Assembly: GCA_017518735.1 (NCBI GenBank)
Contig: JAFWTY010000040.1
Span: forward strand, 1 to 64,000
DNA from: Lachnospiraceae bacterium
GTDB lineage: Bacteria > Bacillota > Clostridia > Lachnospirales > Lachnospiraceae
Length of the DNA stretch: 64,000 bases
Reading direction: 5' to 3'
The translations under genes and the position numbers were made by a program. This document shows positions 28,348 through 59,898 of the stretch, piece after piece. The notes beneath the pieces are model-generated. The model was not told the DNA's origin and did no database searches. It was given only the letters and a program-made list of their open reading frames with translations. The number at the start of each line of letters is the position of its first letter. Position 1 is the first letter of the stretch.

Positions 28348-29079
28348 TTATTCTTCAAGCGGTCTCATAAGGAGTACCGCAATGTTGTCTTTTCCGCCGT
28401 TGTCATTCGCGGTCTTGATCAAAAGTTCCGCTTTGGCCTTCAGCTCTTCTTCGGACTTTGTAATCTGCAGGATATCCGCATCTTCGATCATGTTCGTAAG
28501 ACCGTCCGAGCACATCAGCACCATGTCGTCTTTCTTCATCGTAACCTCGAAGAAATCCACATTGACGGAATTCGACGCACCGATTGCTCTGGTGATGATA
28601 TTCTTATCCGGATGATTTCTTGCGCTCTCCCTGTCGATTCCGCCCATTCTGACCATTTCCTCCACAAGAGAATGATCACGGGTAACCTGTGTAATCGCAT
28701 CGTTGATGATGTACAGTCTGCTGTCGCCGACATTTGCAACATACAGTGTTCCGTCCACATAAGTGGATGCCACAACAGTTGTTCCCATGCCGTCCAGATT
28801 AGCATCCTCGAGGGATTTCTTTCGGATCAGCTTGTTGGCAAACTGAATGGCATCATCCAGGATTGCAACAGGTTCTTTCTTCTTTGACTTTGCGACTTCC
28901 TCCACGATGGTTTCCACCGTACACTTTGATGCATAGTCGCCGGCCTTGTGGCCTCCCATACCGTCCGCAACCACAAAAAGGTTTGGCAGATTGCCTAAAG
29001 GAACCACACAGGTGAAGACAAAATCCTGATTCAATTGTCGTTTTCTTCCGATATCAGTAACGGAAAATACTTCAACCAC
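28348..29079 (-). CDS. prpC: PP2C-type Ser/Thr phosphatase
   Basis: A metal-dependent phosphatase that reverses PrkC-type phosphorylation. Its motifs are SVTDIGRKRQLNQD, VVADGMGGHKAGDYAS, NVGDSRLY and CSDGLTNM, which supply the metal-binding aspartates. It uses a GTG start two bases after the rlmN stop region, with a GGAGGAAG site that lies inside the end of rlmN. It is the only PP2C gene in the window, while two Ser/Thr kinases are present, so it might also act on the second kinase. Confidence 0.96.
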   Translation of the reverse strand: MVEVFSVTDIGRKRQLNQDFVFTCVVPLGNLPNLFVVADGMGGHKAGDYASKCTVETIVEEVAKSKKKEPVAILDDAIQFANKLIRKKSLEDANLDGMGTTVVASTYVDGTLYVANVGDSRLYIINDAITQVTRDHSLVEEMVRMGGIDRESARNHPDKNIITRAIGASNSVNVDFFEVTMKKDDMVLMCSDGLTNMIEDADILQITKSEEELKAKAELLIKTANDNGGKDNIAVLLMRPLEE

Positions 29080-49294: not shown

Positions 49295-50452
49295 TTACAG
49301 TTTTTCCTGAATCATCTCTCGGATCGTGAATCCGACAGCCAACGCCACCGTCACAAAAGCCGGTGCCACCATCCACCAGTGCGTAGCCGTTCCGATCACG
49401 TATACACCGGCATCTTCGCTGTAATAGTTAATACTTGCGCTGACAATGAAGTTTAGGGCTATCATCAGAATGGTCAGATAAGACATCGTATTTCCGATAA
49501 TACTGCCCAGATATATGATGATAATAACGCAGACCGCCGCGAGTGCAAGCCACAGGAATACACCGCGCAGAATGTTTTTGACGGCAAAAATCTGAAGGAT
49601 CAGCGTTGTGGCATATACTTCCATGGAAGCACAGAACCACGCATCCACGCTCTCGGAATACATGCGGTTGGCATGCCATACACAGTAGATTAAGAAAACC
49701 ACAACCGGAGCCGCCATGGTGATAATTCGAACCGCACGGAACTGATCTAGAATGCGATAGAATCCGCTGATGTTTACGAAGAAAAACATTCCCGCTCCGC
49801 AAAGGAGAATCATAATTACCAGGAAAACCGCTTCAAACGGAGTAAATACGTGCTTCATGTCGCGGATGGCATCGTCAGGCTGTAAGAGTTTTCGGTTCAA
49901 CCACGCTCCGAACATGGAACTCAATACATTGATTAAGATGAATGCAACCAGCAGGTTCCCGAAAATGATCCATGCCGGGGAATTGATATCCATATACGGT
50001 CCCATTACGCTGACGCGTGCAAAAATCACAAAACCGCTCCATAACGCGGTTATAAAATTCACCATACGGGTGAATCTCACCTGCTTAAAATGAACCGCAA
50101 AGCAGAAAAGTGCTACCGCAATTGCTGAAAAAATCGATGCATAGGATGCATTCATATGCTCCGTAATTTCGGACAGTCTGGCTCCGTGATTCTTGAGTAT
50201 GGGAACAACGCTCATGTAGATTACACATGCAAAAAAGCCGACCCATCCAAGAACCAGAATCAACGCTGAAATGGATTCGATCATACGAATCCGGTAAGGC
50301 TCCATGGATTTTGATTCTTCTTTTCGGATTTCTTTTTTTCGAAAACGGGCATACTTACGTACGAAGGAGTCAAAAGCCTCCTCCCTTTCTCCGAGTCCGG
50401 AAAACGTTTCCAGGAAATCCGTTATTTCAAATCCCAATGGTGTTTTTGCCAT
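49295..50452 (-). CDS. polytopic membrane protein of unknown function
   Basis: I do not recognise this protein. It has 385 residues. The first 55 are soluble and charged (FVRKYARFRKKEIRKEE), and then about ten hydrophobic segments follow to the end. No transporter motif is visible. It starts 29 bases after the radical SAM gene with a weak ribosome binding site and is the last gene of the kinase-FHA-AAA block, so it may be the membrane component or target of that system (inference). It shows no signal peptide or lipobox. Confidence 0.8.
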   Translation of the reverse strand: MAKTPLGFEITDFLETFSGLGEREEAFDSFVRKYARFRKKEIRKEESKSMEPYRIRMIESISALILVLGWVGFFACVIYMSVVPILKNHGARLSEITEHMNASYASIFSAIAVALFCFAVHFKQVRFTRMVNFITALWSGFVIFARVSVMGPYMDINSPAWIIFGNLLVAFILINVLSSMFGAWLNRKLLQPDDAIRDMKHVFTPFEAVFLVIMILLCGAGMFFFVNISGFYRILDQFRAVRIITMAAPVVVFLIYCVWHANRMYSESVDAWFCASMEVYATTLILQIFAVKNILRGVFLWLALAAVCVIIIIYLGSIIGNTMSYLTILMIALNFIVSASINYYSEDAGVYVIGTATHWWMVAPAFVTVALAVGFTIREMIQEKL

Positions 50453-50481
50453 ATCTGTTCTTACGTTCTCTTTTTGTTTTC

Positions 50482-51060
50482 TTATTCTTTGGACAAAAAT
50501 CCCGCAGGATGAATGCCGACGCTTACGATACCGTCCTGCGCCGCAAATGAATCGATGATTCTGCGGTCTGTCTTTATATATTCTTCGTACTGCTCTTTCT
50601 TATTTTCATTCAGGAAATGAATGATCTGATTGGAGGAACCTTTAAGAATCTCTCCGTGATTTTCCTCCTGCCGGTACTCTCCGTCTACCAGGACCGATAC
50701 CCTCTCCAGCAGTCTTTCATAGACTTCCTTCTTTTCTTCCCTGATTTCATTCAGCGTAAATCCGGTAAAAAGAAGAACATCGTCGCAAAAATCTTTCAGT
50801 CCGTCCAGGAGCCATACCAGTTCTTCCGCCTGCAAGAGAGGTTCTCCCCCCGTAACGGATATGCCGGTGAGCGCATAGTCTTTTATGGCCGCACGGCACA
50901 TCGCCAGAACCATTTCCTTCGGAACTTCTTTTCCTTCGAAAGGCTGCAATTCCGGATTCGCACAACCCGGGCATTTTCTTTCACATCCCTGAAGCCACAA
51001 TCCGAGCCTTTCCCCGGGTCCCAGAGCATGGATGGGATACAGCACACGCCCCAGTCTCAT
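50482..51060 (-). CDS. NrdG-like radical SAM activase, single 4Fe-4S cluster
   Basis: A small radical SAM protein of 192 residues. It carries the cluster motif CERKCPGC (Cys26, 30, 33; C-x3-C-x2-C), the SAM-contact motif TGGEPLLQ and little else, like the activating enzymes of anaerobic ribonucleotide reductase. No glycyl-radical enzyme or reductase gene is nearby. Its ATG overlaps the stop of the AAA+ ATPase gene by four bases, so it is translationally coupled to that gene and probably acts in the same system. The usual role of such proteins is to make a radical on a partner protein; whether that holds here is unknown. Confidence 0.87.
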   Translation of the reverse strand: MRLGRVLYPIHALGPGERLGLWLQGCERKCPGCANPELQPFEGKEVPKEMVLAMCRAAIKDYALTGISVTGGEPLLQAEELVWLLDGLKDFCDDVLLFTGFTLNEIREEKKEVYERLLERVSVLVDGEYRQEENHGEILKGSSNQIIHFLNENKKEQYEEYIKTDRRIIDSFAAQDGIVSVGIHPAGFLSKE

Positions 51061-52916
51061 TGTGCTCTCCAGACAATGTCAAAACGTGAATTTTCATCGA
51101 CGATGTCGATGACTTCCTTGCGCTCTCCTCTTACCACATGCTCATCAAAAATGTGTCTTGCGAGAGGATTGATTAAAGCCTTTTCCACAATATTGTTGAT
51201 ACCGCGGCCACCGTTTTCCAGATTCTTCATGGCAAGATTCAAAAGCTTGTCTTCCACCTTGGACAGATCAACCGTGATTCCGTTTTCGGTACGAAGCGTT
51301 TCCTCTATCTTCTTTACACGATTATGCAAAATCTCGCCTGCGGCATCTTTTCCGATAAAGTCAAAGACCACAATATTTTCGCCGATACGGTTTAAAATCT
51401 CGGGACGTCCGAGTTCCAGTTTGAAGTAATCGGAAATAGCATCCTTTACTTTCTTTCTGACTTTTTCCGGAACCATGTCCTTCGTTACATTTTCTTTCCG
51501 GTTTCCGAATTCATCCTTGGTATAGATTCCCAGGTTGCTGGTAAAAATAATGATACAGTCGGAAAAATAAGCTGTATTTCCCTGACCGTCCGTCATTCTT
51601 CCGTCCTCGAGAATCTGAAGGAACTTATCCATGATACTCGGGCTGGCTTTTTCAATCTCATCAAACAACAGAATGGAGAATGGATTATTCCGAACCGCAT
51701 TGGTTAACTGACCGCCGGCTTCATATCCCACATATCCCGGAGGTGCACCGAAAAGTCTCTGGTCCGAATTGTCGTGCATATATTCACTCATATCAAAACG
51801 AATGCAGGATTTTTCATCACCGAAAATAAGCTCTGCAAGCGTTTTGGCCGTTTCCGTCTTACCGGTACCGGTAGGTCCCGCAAAGAATAAAACGCCTTTC
51901 GGAGAAGCATTGTTCTTAACACCGGAAAGTCCGCTTACGGAACGCTTCAAAACGTCCAGTGCCTGCGATACTGCCTGGTCCTGTCCTTTGACACGATTTT
52001 TCAGGATACTCTCTCCGTCCTGTAATCTCCGGTAGAGATCCTCAGACTCCCAGGGATTGTCCTTGATTCCGTAGGTATAAAGATCCACAACGGAGCAGAG
52101 TTTCGAAATACGAATCTTTCTGCGGATGCAAAGCTTCCGAAGCTGCATCAGTTCAAAAAACGTAAATCCCTCGGTTCTCGCGATAAAGCGGTCTAAGAGT
52201 TTTTCCCACTCTTCCTTGTTCTCCTCATAGACCTTCCAGTCTTCCTCATAAACCTCGGGTGCAAAGAAGGATGCCATGTTTCCCTTCTCCAGGAAGGCTC
52301 TTCTCTCCTGCGCCGTGGGATAATCGATGTGAATGCCTTTCATACGGTTTACATGAAGATAAAACCAGGAAGGCAGGTCATTTTGCTTATTCGTGATCAT
52401 TACCAGCATGTTGCCGAGACGCTTCGCGGCGTCACCGACATCCGCAGCATTGAGTACCGCCTGCTGAAGAATGGTGTATCCTTTTAAATCGGCCGGCAGA
52501 ATATGATCCGGAGCCACGATGGTTCTGGATGCAAAATCCATGACGATCACCATATTCTCACGGTTCTGAATCAAAGCCTGCTTGATCAGGGTTGCCGCTC
52601 CGGTATCCGAATCATCGAAAGAAGCTTCGATTCGACCATCGGATGGAGTCATTCCCACGATTTCACCAAAACGCTTTATGGTCTCTTCATTCGCAATGAA
52701 ACCCTCAACCGGGTCATAAAACAGAATATTGGTATATCCTCTTTCGCGGAAGAACTCTTCCAGATAGCTGTTTAAAGTAAGCCACGCTCCCTTTAATTCG
52801 CCTTCCGGATATTCAAAGCTGTCATAGATATTTCCTTCCAGAATGATGCAGTTTTTGATCTGTGTAAAAATATCCAGTTCACGATGCCACTTTGTAATAT
52901 GCATTTCCTGTCCCAT
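51057..52916 (-). CDS. Clp-like AAA+ ATPase with a degenerate N-terminal ATPase-like region
   Basis: A 619-residue protein-remodelling ATPase. Residues about 300-619 match the second ATPase domain of ClpB/ClpA: Walker A GPTGTGKTET near 345, RFDMSEYM, pore-loop region GAPPGYVGYE, Walker B LLFDEIEKA near 414, arginine-finger region RPEILNRIGENIV, and the C-terminal small domain. Residues 1-290 begin WHRELDIFTQIKNCIILEGNIYD and look AAA-like, but no Walker A is visible. There is no ClpB middle domain and no obvious ClpP-binding loop, so unfolding or complex remodelling is more likely than degradation. It lies between the FHA and radical SAM genes. Confidence 0.9.
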   Translation of the reverse strand: MGQEMHITKWHRELDIFTQIKNCIILEGNIYDSFEYPEGELKGAWLTLNSYLEEFFRERGYTNILFYDPVEGFIANEETIKRFGEIVGMTPSDGRIEASFDDSDTGAATLIKQALIQNRENMVIVMDFASRTIVAPDHILPADLKGYTILQQAVLNAADVGDAAKRLGNMLVMITNKQNDLPSWFYLHVNRMKGIHIDYPTAQERRAFLEKGNMASFFAPEVYEEDWKVYEENKEEWEKLLDRFIARTEGFTFFELMQLRKLCIRRKIRISKLCSVVDLYTYGIKDNPWESEDLYRRLQDGESILKNRVKGQDQAVSQALDVLKRSVSGLSGVKNNASPKGVLFFAGPTGTGKTETAKTLAELIFGDEKSCIRFDMSEYMHDNSDQRLFGAPPGYVGYEAGGQLTNAVRNNPFSILLFDEIEKASPSIMDKFLQILEDGRMTDGQGNTAYFSDCIIIFTSNLGIYTKDEFGNRKENVTKDMVPEKVRKKVKDAISDYFKLELGRPEILNRIGENIVVFDFIGKDAAGEILHNRVKKIEETLRTENGITVDLSKVEDKLLNLAMKNLENGGRGINNIVEKALINPLARHIFDEHVVRGERKEVIDIVDENSRFDIVWRAQ

Positions 52917-52954
52917 TCGATACCCCCCGTTTGTAACTGTCCTACATTTGTAGT

Positions 52955-53596
52955 CTATACATCGTCTTTTGCAACCAGTTTCAGATAAGCTGCCTCATAG
53001 ACATGATCCTGTCCCCATCTAGCCCCCATCACAATCCAGTCATTTACCGAAACACTGTAAGGCAAATTGGTCTTTATCTCTGTTTGATTGACCAGAGTCG
53101 GATTGGTCTTTCCGATATGTTCCACAAACACACCAACCTCCGTCATACGAACCCTCAAATGTCTTCCGCTGACAAATGTCTTTGCGTAGAAATAATCCGC
53201 TCCGGTTTCCTTTCTTCCAAGCACGAACTCATCCCCCACGTGCAGAGGAAGTTTAAACCTTCCGTCATCGGATACCAGGTAGAGTATCTTTTCATCTTTT
53301 TTCTCCTGTACCGGCTGCTCAATGCTCTCTTCTTTTCCTTCCTCATACGGTGGCAGAGACAAAAGAATATAGCCACATTCGCAACGACTCAGATGGTACG
53401 GACTGACTTTATGACACCTCGGACATTTTCTGAAAAATACCGCAGGCTCCTTTTCTTCTTCCACTTCTGCTTTCGGAACAATGATGTCTTCTCCGTCACT
53501 GATGGGAACTCGAAGCAGATCCTCTCCGCACCCTGTGCAGATGATTGTATTCAGTTGATTAAAAAGTCCGCAGGACGGGCATTTTTTTCCTTTCAT
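52955..53596 (-). CDS. double zinc-ribbon FHA-domain protein
   Basis: A 213-residue cytoplasmic adaptor. Two zinc ribbons come first (Cys6, 9, 20, 23, then a second set in RKCPRCHKV ... CECG near residues 55-72), with an acidic linker between them and a second acidic linker after. The FHA domain (about 105-200) keeps the phosphothreonine-binding marks: VLGRKE, SGRH and a conserved Asn in the NPTLVNQ loop. FHA domains bind phosphothreonine peptides, so the kinase encoded two genes upstream is the natural source of its ligand. It starts 12 bases after the MSGPK gene. Confidence 0.9.
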   Translation of the reverse strand: MKGKKCPSCGLFNQLNTIICTGCGEDLLRVPISDGEDIIVPKAEVEEEKEPAVFFRKCPRCHKVSPYHLSRCECGYILLSLPPYEEGKEESIEQPVQEKKDEKILYLVSDDGRFKLPLHVGDEFVLGRKETGADYFYAKTFVSGRHLRVRMTEVGVFVEHIGKTNPTLVNQTEIKTNLPYSVSVNDWIVMGARWGQDHVYEAAYLKLVAKDDV

Positions 53597-53608
53597 GACG
53601 AACCTCTT

Positions 53609-54877
53609 TTATAATAATTGTTTTCTCTGTAAGTACTTTGTTTTCCGGTCATAATACATATCGTCCGGAATTTTCTTTTTGTCTGCTTTCGAACAGTCGA
53701 ATACGGACATATTGATTACCTGTGCAAAATCCGGACTCGGCGGATACATCGCCTCTTTTTTCATCGAAAGACCGTGTACATTGATCAGATGGAAGATTTT
53801 TTCATACTCTTCGCAGAACTTCTCCTGCTCTTTTACCAGATGCTCCACTTCTCTTTGATGAGGCGGTCTGTCCTTGGTATCCGATGCGGCCACTTCCATA
53901 GTGATTTTACCCATCGAATCATAGATAACATGTAACACGGTATCTGTATTGATCTGATAGAGTTCGCGGAAGAAATCCATATCTTCTTCCTTCTCTCCGA
54001 TGTACGTGTATCCCAATTCTTCCAGACTCTCTCTGACTGTTTTCATCAGGAGACGAAGGTCCGCATTTTTCTCGCGTTTGCTTAAAAGTTTTCCGCATTC
54101 ATAGCGAATCGCCTCAACGGAAGATTCCGCAAAAGGAAACTTCAAAAGCTCTTCTCCGGCTTCCTTACAAAGCATATGATATTTGGCAAGCTCGATGCTT
54201 AATCTTTCATCCAGCTTATCCTGTTTTCTTTCTTCTTTTTCGATTCTCGCACGGACCGGTCGGATAAACATTAAATCCACATAGTGAGTTTCCGAAAAAA
54301 GTGAAAAGCCATCCCTTCCTTTATCCGCTTCCAGCTGTGTAATCTTCTCCTTTGCTTTCTTAAGTTCCGGTGAATCCAATCCACATTCCGCAGCACGCTC
54401 ACTAAGCTCCTCAATCAGTGCATGCACTCTTCTGCATTCGCCTTCGGCCGTCTCCATAGAGATTCCGGGCGTGTGAAACTCTTTATTCAGAGCCTCTCTT
54501 CCATCCAGCCATTTTTTACGTAATTCGTAAATCTGCTCCTCTTTTTCCAGCAGAACCTCTTCGTCCTGATTGTGTTTCGAACGAAGTTGTTGCAAAACTT
54601 CCTTCATGTGAATGTTGGTACCGTCAAGAAGAGCTGCTTCCAGTTTCGGCAAAGACTGTTCGATGGACTTTTCAATCTCACCCATTGCCTCACCGCATTT
54701 TCTTGCATCCTCGGAGGAATAGAACGGAATCAGCATATTGGACAGAATCGCAATATCCTTTTTTCTTCGTTTTAGTTCTTCTTTCAGGCGCACCAGATCC
54801 TGAAGAAGTTTTCTGCGTTCTTCTTCAAAAAGATGAAGCCTTTTCATTTCCGCTGCTGATATTTTCGGACCACTCAT
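53609..54877 (-). CDS. coiled-coil protein with MSGPK N-terminus
   Basis: I cannot assign a function. It has 422 residues that are mostly charged heptad-like helices (EERRKLLQDLVRLKEELKRRK, later EKEERKQDKLDERL) and a mixed C-terminal part after about residue 270. The first residues, MSGPKIS, form a distinctive leader that I associate with coiled-coil proteins in kinase or ATPase gene clusters of other bacteria; that is recall, not a search. It lies between the kinase and FHA genes, so a scaffold joining them is plausible. No membrane segment or signal peptide is present. Confidence 0.82.
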   Translation of the reverse strand: MSGPKISAAEMKRLHLFEEERRKLLQDLVRLKEELKRRKKDIAILSNMLIPFYSSEDARKCGEAMGEIEKSIEQSLPKLEAALLDGTNIHMKEVLQQLRSKHNQDEEVLLEKEEQIYELRKKWLDGREALNKEFHTPGISMETAEGECRRVHALIEELSERAAECGLDSPELKKAKEKITQLEADKGRDGFSLFSETHYVDLMFIRPVRARIEKEERKQDKLDERLSIELAKYHMLCKEAGEELLKFPFAESSVEAIRYECGKLLSKREKNADLRLLMKTVRESLEELGYTYIGEKEEDMDFFRELYQINTDTVLHVIYDSMGKITMEVAASDTKDRPPHQREVEHLVKEQEKFCEEYEKIFHLINVHGLSMKKEAMYPPSPDFAQVINMSVFDCSKADKKKIPDDMYYDRKTKYLQRKQLL

Positions 54878-54907
54878 TGTCTCTTCTCCGCTATTATTCC
54901 GGTTTAC

Positions 54908-56602
54908 TTATTCAAACCCCGGCATTTCATATCCTCTGCCTTTTAGCCAACCGTAAAAAGATGGTTTCAGTTTATGTTCTCCGTCCAGGAAAAACGATAA
55001 TGCGCGATAGGTCTGCGTGTAATTCTCTCCCGGATCTTTAATCAGGAATTGTTTCAGTTCCTCCACACTTTGGAAGACAGTTCCGTCCGGCAGTCCCGGA
55101 TCATATTCCGTGTGGTTCGTAATCCGGTATGCAAACTCATAAATGCTTTTCTCACGAATGGAAAACCATTCCTTGGAGATGGCTCGTCTTTCAAATTCCG
55201 CAATCAACTTACATTTGTCATCGGATTCTCCGACCGCTTTTGCGTTCTTTGAAAGAACTTCCGTTTTCAGTAACACTTCCGCACTCTCCACTGCCTTTAA
55301 GCGGATTTCTTTTACATGTGCAAAAAGTGCCGCAAACATCGCTTCCGCCCATTCGGAAACCGTATTGTACACACCCATCGGTGAAATGATCACCGTAATC
55401 GAAGGCGACAGGGCATACAGAATCTTCTCCATCCTTACGTCGGAATCATTCTTTTTATCGTTCAATCCGTCCTCAATTACGGATGCATAAAACCTCTGCC
55501 TGTCCGTTGGCGTTCTTCCGTATCGCAGATGACTGATCAGCTGTCCGCTTAAAAGAAGTCCCTTGCCTTCTTCCCAGTGATAGCCCATTGCCAGGCACAA
55601 CGACTCAATATCCGAATACTCTTTTCCGCAAAAACTGATGGGTGGAATGTCCTTCGATTCCATGCCACCGGTATTCGAAAGGCCGGGAACGGGAAGTTCC
55701 TCTCCGTTTAACCAGCGTTTTACTTCCTCATACGTCCACCTGCGGTTCGGATTTCCCAGATCATGACGATAGGACAGATCCTGATAGGTCAGTCCGAGGA
55801 TCAGATGGTACAGTCTTTCCGGCATGTTTCCGGGTTTGGAAATCACGCTCGTATAAGAGTTTTCCTCTCCGAAAGGGGTTTTTCCGGTGAAAAGCTCATA
55901 AATCAGTATTCCGAGGGAATAATAATCGGATTCATCAAAATAGACATTTCGAAGGACTTCGGGAGCCGCATACGTTGCGGTAAAACCAATCTGTGAGACA
56001 ACGATGGACTTGGATTCGCGGACTGCCGAAGACAGACCGAAATCGATCAATACAAGCCCATTCTCATCTTCGTTGGACCACATGATGTTGCCCGGTTTGA
56101 TATCACGGTGAAGAACACCGTTTTCATGTAAATCGTGGAGTGCTTCGTTGAGATTCGGAATCAGAACATCGCACAATTCCTCCATGGAAAAAGTGCGTTC
56201 TTTCAGGGAGTTGGCAAGACTCCCCCTTTTATAGAATTCATAGATCTCATAATATTTATCGTATAATTCTCCGGTGCCGTAGATTTTGGCGATGCGCGGA
56301 GAATTCATGTTTTTTAATCGTTTAGCCAGTAACGATTCTTCATCAATCGGTCTGCGAAAAACCTTAATGAGATATTTTTGCGAATTCGGATCATCCTTTT
56401 CGGAAAGCAGTTTGGCAAAAAACAAATCCGCTTCCCCACCGGTTTCGGAATTATCCATCTTTCCGGTAATGACATAATCACCGGGCAGGGTGTCCCCTTC
56501 TCTTAAAACATCCGAAGAACTCACACTGTTTCCTGGATTAAAAACAGTATCTTGCGAAACTTTATTCTCTTTTATGGGATTCAATACCGTTTCGTTGTAC
56601 AT
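54908..56602 (-). CDS. Ser/Thr protein kinase with FHA-ligand-like N-terminal motifs
   Basis: A soluble Hanks-type kinase of 564 residues. The N-terminal tail has two copies of TV(L/F)NP, with Thr5 and Thr19, 14 residues apart. The kinase domain (about 45-310) has a Gly-rich loop of poor match (ETGGEADLF), the ATP-binding Lys in LIKVF, catalytic HRDIKPGN (Asp167), IDFGLS and YAAPEVL, so it should be active. The C-terminal 250 residues match nothing I know; they contain a segment with WEEGKGLLLSGQLISHLR and no membrane helix or PASTA repeat. It is 26 bases downstream of the HD-GYP gene and leads the FHA/AAA genes. Its substrate is probably encoded in the cluster (inference). Confidence 0.92.
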   Translation of the reverse strand: MYNETVLNPIKENKVSQDTVFNPGNSVSSSDVLREGDTLPGDYVITGKMDNSETGGEADLFFAKLLSEKDDPNSQKYLIKVFRRPIDEESLLAKRLKNMNSPRIAKIYGTGELYDKYYEIYEFYKRGSLANSLKERTFSMEELCDVLIPNLNEALHDLHENGVLHRDIKPGNIMWSNEDENGLVLIDFGLSSAVRESKSIVVSQIGFTATYAAPEVLRNVYFDESDYYSLGILIYELFTGKTPFGEENSYTSVISKPGNMPERLYHLILGLTYQDLSYRHDLGNPNRRWTYEEVKRWLNGEELPVPGLSNTGGMESKDIPPISFCGKEYSDIESLCLAMGYHWEEGKGLLLSGQLISHLRYGRTPTDRQRFYASVIEDGLNDKKNDSDVRMEKILYALSPSITVIISPMGVYNTVSEWAEAMFAALFAHVKEIRLKAVESAEVLLKTEVLSKNAKAVGESDDKCKLIAEFERRAISKEWFSIREKSIYEFAYRITNHTEYDPGLPDGTVFQSVEELKQFLIKDPGENYTQTYRALSFFLDGEHKLKPSFYGWLKGRGYEMPGFE

Positions 56603-56628: not shown

Positions 56629-59600
56629 TTATTTGGGTTCTTCCGTTACTTCTTCAAATACAACTTTGCCGTCTTTCGCTTCTTCCGCTGCTTTCTCTTT
56701 TGCTTCTTCGATAGCTTTTTCGATTGCCTTTTCTTTAGCTTCTTCTTTCAGCTCTTCAATCAGCTCTTCTTTTACTTCTTCATATTTCGTCTTTGTTTCT
56801 TCAAGAGCTTCCTTCTTCTGTGCCTCATGGATGTTACTGATATCCTCAACACTGCCGCCGCCGACATCATCGGGATCACGGAATTTACCCTGTTCCACGA
56901 GACGTAAAAATGCATCTACGACATCGGGTGTTAACTGTGTTCCGGAAACTTCCTTGATGATAGATACCGCCTTTTCAAAGTTCATACGCTTTCTGTAAGG
57001 ACGGTCGGAATACATGGCATCAAACGTATCCGCAACGGCAATAATCTGAGCCACTCTCGGAATTTCGTCTCCCTTGAGTCCTCTCGGATAACCTTTTCCG
57101 TCGGGACGCTCATGGTGAGCTTCCGCACCGGTTGCAAGTTCCGGCATAATACTGATGTCTTTCAAGGTCTTATAACCCAAAGAGGAGTGAGACTTAATCT
57201 CCGCGAATTCGTCATCCGTAAGTCTTCCGTTCTTGTTCAGCACTTCCGGACGGATACCGATCTTACCGATATCGTGCAACAGTGCAATGTTACGGAACTT
57301 CTCCACGGTTTCTTCATCATATCCGAGTTCTTTGGAAAGCATCTCCGTGTATTCCGCAACACGTGTGGAATGACCGTTCGTATACTTATCCTTCATATCG
57401 ATTACTTTCGCGAATGCTTCAATCATCTCACGAATAAAGAGTCTGTTCTCTTCCTGCTTGGCAAGAAGTTTTTCCATTCTTCTTCTGGAAATAATCAATG
57501 CAATTCCGATGATGAAGGCTGTTGCCGTAAGTCCGACAAAAAGCCAGAACCAGACTTTTTCATAGATGGATTTGTCTTTTACGATCGTAACCTTCAGTTC
57601 ATTCTGACCGCTTCCCGCATTGTCATGAAGCGTCATGATGAATTCATATGTTCCGCCTCGAAGGTTGGTATAGTCAACCGGTTCCATGTCATTACGACGC
57701 ACCGTGGTTTTTGTTTTTTCAAAACCTTTCAGATAGTAGGTCACATCCGGATTCAAAAGCGAATAGGTATATACGAAATCATAAATACGTACTCTCTTTA
57801 CACCGGCTTTTACATGAAATACGCCTTCCTCATCCGGATAGATAATCTCCCCGTCAGCATCGATATAAGGCACGGCCATTTTAATCTTGGCAACCTCATA
57901 GAAGGGCACTTCAATGTTTACCTTTGCAACACCGGTGGTACCGGCAATATACAGATCTCCGTTTTCATCCACGCAACTGTAGGAGTTTGCGGTGGATACA
58001 CAGGGAAGACCGTTGTCCCTGCTGTAATGCATCGGATCAAGATTCTCGTTAGCAAGCAGCTCTTCCACTTCACAGACATAGACACCGTTACTGCTTAATA
58101 CCCATACTTCTCCGCGGCTGTTTTCCACGAGATCGAAGTTGTTGGTATAAGGGAACTGTTTGATTGTGGTCATCTGATACTCTTCGTCCATATAGCCGAT
58201 GGAGTTACTGGTTACCACCCAGTAGATATGTCTTTCATCGTCTCTCTTGATTCGAAGAACAACTTCCGAAGTAAGTCCTTCTTCATATCCGACATTTTTG
58301 ACACCGGTGTTGTTCAACACATATATACCGTCACCATCGGAGCCAAGTAACATGCTGCCGTCGAATGCCTCACAAAGTGTTAAGATTTCCGGATTGCTTA
58401 AGCCCGTTCTGGTGTCATATACATCAATCACTTTGTTATTATCGAGAACGGCCATACCACCCGTGCAGGCAGCCATAATGTTTCCGTCGCTTCTTTCATA
58501 CACAACGCGGACACGGTTGGAAGGAAGCCCGTCATCTGCAGTGAAACATTTGACTTTTCCGTGATCATATCTTACAAGACCCTTGTCCGTGTAAGTGGAA
58601 AACCAGAGTCTGTCCTTGGAGTCCTTGATGATGGAACGGATTCTGGTATCAGCCATCAGTTCCACAAAGTTGGTGCAACCGTCATATGCTTCCGGTGCGC
58701 CTTCGAGAGAAGTGATATTGATATTGCTTAACTTTCCGCTCTTGTCAACTGCCATAAGGCCGGTGTCGGTACCCATATAAAGGATTCCGCCCAGTTTGCA
58801 GGTGGAGTTAACAACAGCGGAATCCATGTTGTACTGGTAGAAGATATCGGTAAAACGGTTCGGAACGATTTTCATAACGCCCTGTCTGGAGGAGGTAAAC
58901 CAAAGGTTTCCTTCGTAATCCACGAGCATCTGATCGATGGAATTGTTCATCGGAAGATTGTTTAACTTCGTGAACTTCTTGTTTTCGACCATACCGACTC
59001 CGTTATCACTGCAAATCCAGAGATTGCCTTCTACAATCTCCATGGAGTTGATTTCATTTAAAGGAGCACAGTTAATCTTCTCTGCCTTCTTCATTCCGTC
59101 GGAAAGCTTTCCGTAATAGATTTCGGAATGACTGGTTCCGAGATATACATATCCGGGATTTGCGGAATCCGGTAAAATACTCTTGATATCACTGATTCCA
59201 AGTCTTGTTCCGTCATAGAAACCGGTCAGTCTGCGATTCTCAATCGTAAAAGCAGCACCATTCTGCGTTTCGCCGTAAATGACACCTGTCGCATCTGTAC
59301 GGAGTTCTCTGATGTATTCGTCGTTAATCTGGGACTCGTTTAACAGGGTAAGCGTTCCTTCGGGGTCAATCACACCGATGCCATGGGTGGTTGCCACAAA
59401 AATATAACCGTCCGGATCCTCCGTAATGGAACGTACCGAAGAGGAAGTCAGACCGCCGACACGGTTATACTGTGTAAACTCTCCTTTTTCCATCACAATG
59501 ACACCGTTGTCGTTCGTACCGATCCACAAACGGTTTCTGCTGTCCACGTAAAGGCTTACAACGCTGGTAATACCGGTTTCGGTGGATTCGATACGCTCAA

Positions 59601-59898
59601 AATTGTTGCCGTCATAACGAATCAGACCGGAGTAACCGCCGATCCAGATAAATCCTTCTTCCGTTTCGCAAATCGTATTTGCTTCGGAAGTCGGAAGACC
59701 ATTGTTGTTATCGTATAAAACGGCTGAATACCCGATACCGTCTGAGGTCGGATCCACGGCCAGTTCTTCGTAATCACTTCCGGATATATTTTCCGCATTT
59801 GCTCTGAATGCTCCGAAAAACATAGCAAAAGCAAGAACCGGTGTGAGGATTCCTGCCATAATACGCTTCATTTTTCTGTTCTTTTTCATCCTGTTCAT
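56629..59898 (-). CDS. beta-propeller sensor with HD-GYP cyclic di-GMP phosphodiesterase domain
   Basis: A 1089-residue membrane sensor that should hydrolyse cyclic di-GMP in the cytoplasm. A signal segment (about 10-36) precedes a large extracellular part with many two-component-propeller repeats (LWIGT, LWFTS and similar), a Y_Y_Y-type Ig domain (about 690-765) and one membrane helix (about 778-800). The HD-GYP domain follows, with LLHDIGKIG near 871 and the family signature DGKGYPRG near 937. After about residue 1010 the chain becomes a long Lys/Glu-rich helix, an unusual ending. Hybrid propeller sensors usually end in a histidine kinase, so this output is less common. It is next to the kinase cluster. 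Confidence 0.93.
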   Translation of the reverse strand: MNRMKKNRKMKRIMAGILTPVLAFAMFFGAFRANAENISGSDYEELAVDPTSDGIGYSAVLYDNNNGLPTSEANTICETEEGFIWIGGYSGLIRYDGNNFERIESTETGITSVVSLYVDSRNRLWIGTNDNGVIVMEKGEFTQYNRVGGLTSSSVRSITEDPDGYIFVATTHGIGVIDPEGTLTLLNESQINDEYIRELRTDATGVIYGETQNGAAFTIENRRLTGFYDGTRLGISDIKSILPDSANPGYVYLGTSHSEIYYGKLSDGMKKAEKINCAPLNEINSMEIVEGNLWICSDNGVGMVENKKFTKLNNLPMNNSIDQMLVDYEGNLWFTSSRQGVMKIVPNRFTDIFYQYNMDSAVVNSTCKLGGILYMGTDTGLMAVDKSGKLSNINITSLEGAPEAYDGCTNFVELMADTRIRSIIKDSKDRLWFSTYTDKGLVRYDHGKVKCFTADDGLPSNRVRVVYERSDGNIMAACTGGMAVLDNNKVIDVYDTRTGLSNPEILTLCEAFDGSMLLGSDGDGIYVLNNTGVKNVGYEEGLTSEVVLRIKRDDERHIYWVVTSNSIGYMDEEYQMTTIKQFPYTNNFDLVENSRGEVWVLSSNGVYVCEVEELLANENLDPMHYSRDNGLPCVSTANSYSCVDENGDLYIAGTTGVAKVNIEVPFYEVAKIKMAVPYIDADGEIIYPDEEGVFHVKAGVKRVRIYDFVYTYSLLNPDVTYYLKGFEKTKTTVRRNDMEPVDYTNLRGGTYEFIMTLHDNAGSGQNELKVTIVKDKSIYEKVWFWLFVGLTATAFIIGIALIISRRRMEKLLAKQEENRLFIREMIEAFAKVIDMKDKYTNGHSTRVAEYTEMLSKELGYDEETVEKFRNIALLHDIGKIGIRPEVLNKNGRLTDDEFAEIKSHSSLGYKTLKDISIMPELATGAEAHHERPDGKGYPRGLKGDEIPRVAQIIAVADTFDAMYSDRPYRKRMNFEKAVSIIKEVSGTQLTPDVVDAFLRLVEQGKFRDPDDVGGGSVEDISNIHEAQKKEALEETKTKYEEVKEELIEELKEEAKEKAIEKAIEEAKEKAAEEAKDGKVVFEEVTEEPK

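Follow-up and report, generated by a model that had tools for sequence, protein, structure and literature searches.

The six-gene cluster and its proteins

The window analysed here is a 64,000-nucleotide stretch of Lachnospiraceae bacterium DNA (assembly GCA_017518735.1, contig JAFWTY010000040.1, positions 1 to 64,000). On its minus strand, at 49295-56602, it carries six co-directional open reading frames (ORFs) in the order protein kinase (KIN), MSGPK coiled-coil protein (the coil), FHA protein, AAA+ ATPase, radical SAM protein and membrane protein (MEM), with intergenic gaps of 30, 12, 38, -4 (an ATGA overlap) and 29 bp; all coordinates given for cluster features are on the minus strand. A preliminary description of this DNA had listed the same six minus-strand genes, and every ORF lies where it was placed. 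The identities proposed there for the kinase, the FHA protein, the ClpB-related AAA+ protein and the NrdG-like radical SAM protein are matched by Pfam and NCBIfam scans, in which the coil and MEM have no family match. Hydropathy gives nine transmembrane (TM) segments in MEM and none in the other five proteins. The closest named relatives are uncultured Lachnospiraceae, and we take the host to be a gut- or rumen-type bacterium.

KIN (54908..56602, 564 aa) is a soluble Ser/Thr protein kinase (Pfam Pkinase, 3e-35) without TM segments whose catalytic residues are intact (K80, HRD165 and DFG187). The putative FHA adaptor (52955..53596, 213 aa) combines zinc-ribbon CxxC pairs with a C-terminal FHA domain [53024-53224; Pfam FHA, 6e-7 over residues 125-191] that keeps GR127 and SxxH143.

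The AAA+ ATPase (51057..52916, 619 aa) has a degenerate N-terminal AAA domain (52035-52916) followed by a ClpB-D2-type domain (about 51117-52019) whose motifs are intact. It matches Pfam AAA_2 at 3e-48 and the ClpB model at 2e-76 over residues 297-607, with 258 of 1232 bits. Residues 1-294 are modelled as an AAA+ fold [predicted local distance difference test (pLDDT) 87]; the 50 best Foldseek matches to this domain are all AAA+ proteins (ORC, RFC, ATAD2, Vps4, proteasome, TRIP13) and a profile search with it reaches a VCP-like ATPase at 5e-4. The sequence of the domain has an invariant G-N-x-x-D near its start and no Walker A, and because that motif is missing the first ring should not hydrolyse ATP. 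The second domain, about 36-45% identical to family ClpB/ClpC proteins, keeps the Walker A motif GPTGTGKT (residues 347-354, 51855..51878), the GYVG pore loop and the GGRG sensor-2 motif, all of which it has in common with the D2 domain of the double-ring disaggregases ClpB, ClpC and ClpV. Unlike these, the protein has a Walker-A-less first ring nearer to Cdc48/ORC/RFC-type folds, and no ClpP-loop tripeptide is seen by eye; where ClpB and ClpV have two active AAA rings and a Clp N domain, it has a single Walker A domain.

The coil (53609..54877, 422 aa, no Pfam match above cut-off) is predicted by AlphaFold (pLDDT 84) to consist of a short N-terminal tail, long helices and a C-terminal domain of four strands and a helix; Foldseek with this model returned no significant match. 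The MSGPK motif (residues 1-5, 54863..54877) is predicted to be disordered, residues 1-4 having pLDDT < 50. A Met-Ser start is present in 19 of 19 aligned coils and MSGPK in many, the latter being common to Rhizobium, Caballeronia, Aristaeella and several Clostridia. We take the tail for a short linear motif that may enter the AAA+ pore or bind a partner.

The minimal NrdG-like radical SAM protein (50482..51060, 192 aa; Fer4_12, 3e-29) carries the cluster motif CERKCPGC at 50962-50985 and a GGEP motif. CxxxCxxC occurs in all 21 family members checked, and many have a distinctive C-terminal VGIH/IGIP segment. Membership of Fer4_12, CxxxCxxC and GGEP are shared with the glycyl-radical activases NrdG and PflA, and PflA is the closest PDB chain. 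The protein differs from them in that VGIH/IGIP segment, in a score below the curated NrdG cut-off (NCBIfam, 6e-26, 91 bits against 126) and in its company: there is no NrdD in the operon and no glycyl-radical enzyme was recognised in the loci. The idea that it acts on Gly3 of MSGPK, in a glycyl-radical fashion, is weak, because the enzyme occurs with coils that lack Gly3 (L053, L080, L085, L088-L090 and L093) and MSGPK occurs without the enzyme (L045).

MEM (49295..50452, 385 aa) is a polytopic membrane protein. Two further carriers of the module encode homologues, making three genomes in total. None was found in the other 396 genomes of the family that were searched, and MEM was not seen apart from the module. 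The homologues are 46-54% identical to the window protein, and many alignment columns are invariant.

The gene upstream of the kinase (56629-59898) encodes a Reg_prop propeller and HD-GYP signalling protein. It is separated from KIN by 26 bp, and the transcript may extend beyond the six-gene cluster to include this gene. The wider surroundings in the window include hemZ, hisS and aspS.

Recurrence of the module and exchange of its partners

In a genome of the same genus (G120) the block is precisely absent: 66 bp separate hisS from the HD-GYP gene, and all six genes are missing from this interval. The flanks are syntenic with the window at 59-98% identity (aspS 98%, hisS 94%, hemZ 65%, HD-GYP 63%), and comparison of the junctions by eye found no obvious direct repeats. 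Because of this precise absence the six genes look to have been gained or lost together, as one evolutionary unit, and the HD-GYP gene lies outside that unit since G120 has it too. In the related genome RUG12880 (locus L045) the kinase, MSGPK, FHA, AAA+ and MEM genes lie directly beside hemZ, a position that corresponds to that in the window and is common to both at 45-74% identity; the radical SAM and HD-GYP genes are missing there.

Co-occurrence was counted over 30 loci with a full-length AAA+ gene, taking as partners genes that lie within 10 kb on the same strand. The radical SAM protein accompanies the AAA+ protein in 26 loci, the coil in 26 (six of them assigned by hand from position and start), the kinase in 19, the zinc-ribbon FHA protein in 17, a PP2C phosphatase in 11, a superfamily 1 (SF1) helicase in 10, a PIN protein in five and MEM in three. 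These counts are lower bounds because some contigs (L046, L087, L212) are short. With near-copies removed, 27 loci give radical SAM 23, coil 23, kinase 16, FHA 15, PP2C nine, helicase nine, PIN five and MEM three. We propose as the core a pseudo-D1 AAA+ protein within 10 kb of a member of the radical SAM family and a coil, an arrangement present in the window. The homologues therefore co-occur repeatedly in distant genomes, which is the check that the preliminary description had named for its single-system reading, and this reading stands, the more so as the block is absent in the sister genome.

The AAA+ N-domain is rare, being found in five of 392 genomes in the order, 14 of 399 in the phylum and 17 of 391 in the class, where 11 are weak matches to proteins of 534-569 aa; these and L096, which probably belong to another AAA family, were excluded. 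The core occurs repeatedly across Bacillota. AAA+ homologues are carried on plasmids of Aristaeella, Rhizobium, Caballeronia, Geminocystis and Acinetobacter, phyla other than that of the host having been sampled through plasmids only. Phage records held no full-length AAA+ homologue, and a scan of viral contigs was uninformative, mainly the ClpB D2 part being aligned among the matches listed.

The loci fall into three layouts. Layout A, kinase-coil-FHA-radical SAM-AAA with or without PP2C, comprises the window, L049, L077, L078, L081, L088, L092, L093, L094, L097, L213, L214 and L216. Layout B, SF1 helicase-PIN-coil-AAA-radical SAM (L053, L080, L085, L090 and L215), has neither kinase nor FHA. 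In layout C (Rhizobium L083 and L084, Caballeronia L082) the AAA and radical SAM genes are followed by a fusion of zinc ribbon, kinase, DUF4011 helicase and MTES_1575 nuclease and by an MSGPK protein, so that the kinase is directly and physically linked to a helicase-nuclease. A locus in PMC10250203 is probably a layout C module.

The tree groups the window with L045 and L046 (100/100), and L086, L049 and L081 make up the sister of this clade (100/99 for the six). L049 and L081 carry PP2C and a DUF4011 helicase, which in L081 immediately precedes the kinase and in L049 is a remnant at the contig edge, apparently its C-terminal end. Defence-type copies are thus near relatives of the window copy, which itself has neither helicase nor PP2C. 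Helicases of related loci match the PADLOC models MkoA (9e-96), Hhe (8e-65) and PDC-S37 (9e-139); related loci match MkoA/MkoB, and mad6 is also among the matches. Downstream of the module in L049 (7597-17133) there are DUF4236, PglZ, GmrSD, WYL and ResIII-HNH genes in a defence-island-like arrangement, and genes beside the module in L093 (14562-19901) resemble, by eye, type III CRISPR Csm/RAMP genes. In L079 (8553-12454) a broken copy of the AAA+ gene lies beside an intact kinase and a DUF4011 helicase.

In L077, L086 and L213 the module adjoins His-Xaa-Ser (Hxs) genes. HxsB, HxsC and HxsD pass their cut-offs in both L077 and L213, and HxsA3 does so in L213; L086 matches L077 over the same block. 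The Hxs system is not in the window cluster, and the radical SAM protein of the module is NrdG-like rather than HxsB or HxsC. A prepilin-peptidase-like gene and a MORN-repeat gene also lie directly beside the module in these three loci, whose genomes belong to three different families.

Proteins of the membrane form a further class of partner. By simple hydropathy (no trained predictor), which underlies all TM counts given here, multi-pass proteins are encoded in the tight operons of other helicase-free copies: two with five TM segments in L216, one with six in L078, one with five in L088, and one with three in each of L214 and L092. The Hxs-group loci have single-TM proteins. Just upstream of the module in L216 (4080-7317) are genes for a ClpP-like protease and for a TraG/VirD4-type conjugation protein, which suggests that this module sits on a conjugative element. 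The module thus exchanges its partners, which may be a DUF4011 helicase-nuclease, an SF1 helicase with PIN, the His-Xaa-Ser system or membrane proteins. The earlier account had the six genes right; it had overlooked that the first AAA domain is degenerate, that the coil belongs to the core, that partners are exchanged and that the module is related to defence-type loci.

A candidate phosphothreonine switch

The N-terminal tail of KIN contains two T-[VI]-x-N motifs, ETVLNP (residues 4-9, 56576..56593) and DTVFNP (residues 18-23, 56534..56551), the first a candidate phosphothreonine site for FHA docking and the second of the same presumed role. Six kinases (window, L045, L049, L079 and both of L081) have 12 such motifs in tandem in their tails against a shuffled mean of 0.7 and a maximum of five (5000 shuffles); these kinases are related and hence not independent. 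Taken by itself, the window tail gives a P of about 0.001. The same motif comes back in tails that have hardly any other alignable sequence. The kinase of L088 has seven QQTRREND-type repeats instead, and the layout C fusions have neither the zinc-ribbon FHA gene nor the tail motif. The T-[VI]-x-N motifs are likely to be docking sites for the FHA protein. The flow from kinase to FHA to AAA+ protein put forward in the preliminary description is still an inference; the tandem motifs and the PP2C genes of 11 of the 30 loci lend it support.

PP2C genes are found elsewhere in the genome, one of them at 28348-29079 of the window beside a second kinase gene. On another contig of this genome (C26, L107, 14103-18676) FHA and PP2C genes alternate, the FHA proteins having apparent signal-like starts.

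A kinase, an FHA protein and a Clp-type ATPase act together in the threonine-phosphorylation control of the type VI secretion system (T6SS). The module shares with that pathway (PpkA, Fha, PppA, ClpV) a Ser/Thr kinase, an FHA protein, a ClpB-family AAA+ protein and, in many copies, PP2C; of the set kinase, FHA, PP2C and ClpB-type AAA+, the cluster has the first, second and fourth, and PP2C is in cis only in those 11 loci. It differs in its zinc-ribbon FHA protein, the degenerate first AAA+ ring, the additional radical SAM protein and MSGPK coil, and its outputs. As the preliminary description had noted, the cluster has no secretion structural genes; the sheath gene VipB/TssC was not found in the genome, and none was seen in the related loci. 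By analogy, the module would work like the T6SS threonine-phosphorylation control without being part of a T6SS.

Mechanism and alternative explanations

Reading the parts together, we favour a phosphothreonine-switched protein-remodelling module with exchangeable outputs, often found in defence settings, and rate its chances as even. The order of action, the client and the signal are what we infer. On a stress or invader signal, the kinase would autophosphorylate its threonine-containing tail and perhaps also the coil or its partner. The zinc-ribbon FHA protein would bind the phosphothreonine and, with the coil, deliver a client to the AAA+ ring, where the first ring would serve as a docking or regulatory platform and the ClpB-type second ring (GYVG) would thread or remodel the client, switching the output on or off. 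PP2C would reset the switch, in the window probably a housekeeping PP2C, and the radical SAM protein probably adds a radical-based modification to a component of the module. Relatives probably have as their output either a helicase-nuclease, a defence-type effector, or the Hxs radical SAM system. The 9-TM MEM fits the branch of helicase-free copies with membrane proteins, to which the window belongs; on this basis MEM is its most likely output, with a likely effect on permeability, transport or envelope stress at the membrane.

Several observations weigh against this reading. T-[VI]-x-N differs among kinase clades and the six kinases tested are related; the window operon has no PP2C; phosphorylation is inessential to the AAA-radical SAM-coil core, since the helicase-PIN copies have neither FHA nor kinase; the radical SAM gene is missing in the close relative L045; and the role of MEM as output rests on few cases, as it is known from three genomes. 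The suggestion that the AAA+ protein remodels a target modified by the radical SAM protein found no support, because L045, L050, L095 and possibly L086 have no radical SAM gene and the helicase-PIN loci keep AAA+ and radical SAM without kinase or FHA.

The module is real and recurrent, and apparently undescribed as a system: no paper on this combination was found in a literature search that left bioRxiv and most subscription papers outside. A wider claim, somewhat short of an even chance, is that a pseudo-D1/ClpB-D2 AAA+ protein, an MSGPK-type coil and an NrdG-like radical SAM protein, usually under the control of kinase, FHA and PP2C, form a phylum-spanning chassis with interchangeable outputs, a general platform for defence and envelope signalling. 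If so, a single phosphothreonine-gated AAA+ platform would control very different outputs in bacteria, separately annotated proteins would be linked, and the Hxs system and some DUF4011 helicase-nucleases would gain a candidate regulator. The copy in the window is the compact and membrane-linked version and lends itself well to testing, since nature provides a sister genome from which exactly these six genes are missing.

The strongest alternative, still unlikely, is that the unit is an anti-phage or abortive-infection system in which the sensing of a phage leads the kinase cascade to set MEM free as an effector that damages the membrane. Relatives with DUF4011-SF1-MTES_1575 nuclease, SF1 helicase-PIN, PglZ and GmrSD genes, some on plasmids, their PADLOC matches to MkoA, Hhe, PDC-S37 and mad6, and the patchy presence of the block are in accordance with this, but the hemZ-side position kept in L045 and the setting among hemZ, hisS and aspS suggest vertical stability, nothing of the defence type was recognised among the genes of the window itself, and MEM looks like a multi-pass transporter-like protein rather than a small pore. 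Likeness of the cluster to Mokosh, Hhe and PDC-S37 is confined to the helicase partners of related loci and to KIN, which resembles the kinase part of MkoA (PADLOC); the cluster has no helicase or nuclease, hence no MkoA helicase with its partner, PADLOC gives domain-level matches only in the window, and AAA-radical SAM-coil lies outside those systems as far as searched.

A remnant defence module that has lost its helicase-nuclease and PP2C and retains little function is improbable. The sister clade L049/L081 does have helicase and PP2C, a DUF4011 gene was not found anywhere in the genome, and L079 has a broken copy; against this, all six ORFs are intact and tightly spaced, their catalytic residues are conserved, and three genomes share a conserved MEM. 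More doubtful still is that the radical SAM gene is the anaerobic ribonucleotide reductase activase of this genome, in the operon by chance: it is the genome's best match to the NrdG model, but falls short of the cut-off, another NrdG2-like activase gene lies on contig C23 (by eye), and its relatives travel with the AAA+ gene on plasmids and across phyla. That unrelated housekeeping genes came to share one transcript by chance is barely credible, for although the tight spacing extends to the HD-GYP gene, this idea is contradicted by the distribution, namely the block absence in the sister genome and the recurrence in distant taxa, and with 11 FHA matches in the 2.36 Mb of this genome one would be expected within 10 kb in about 10% of cases, as against the 17 of 30 seen.

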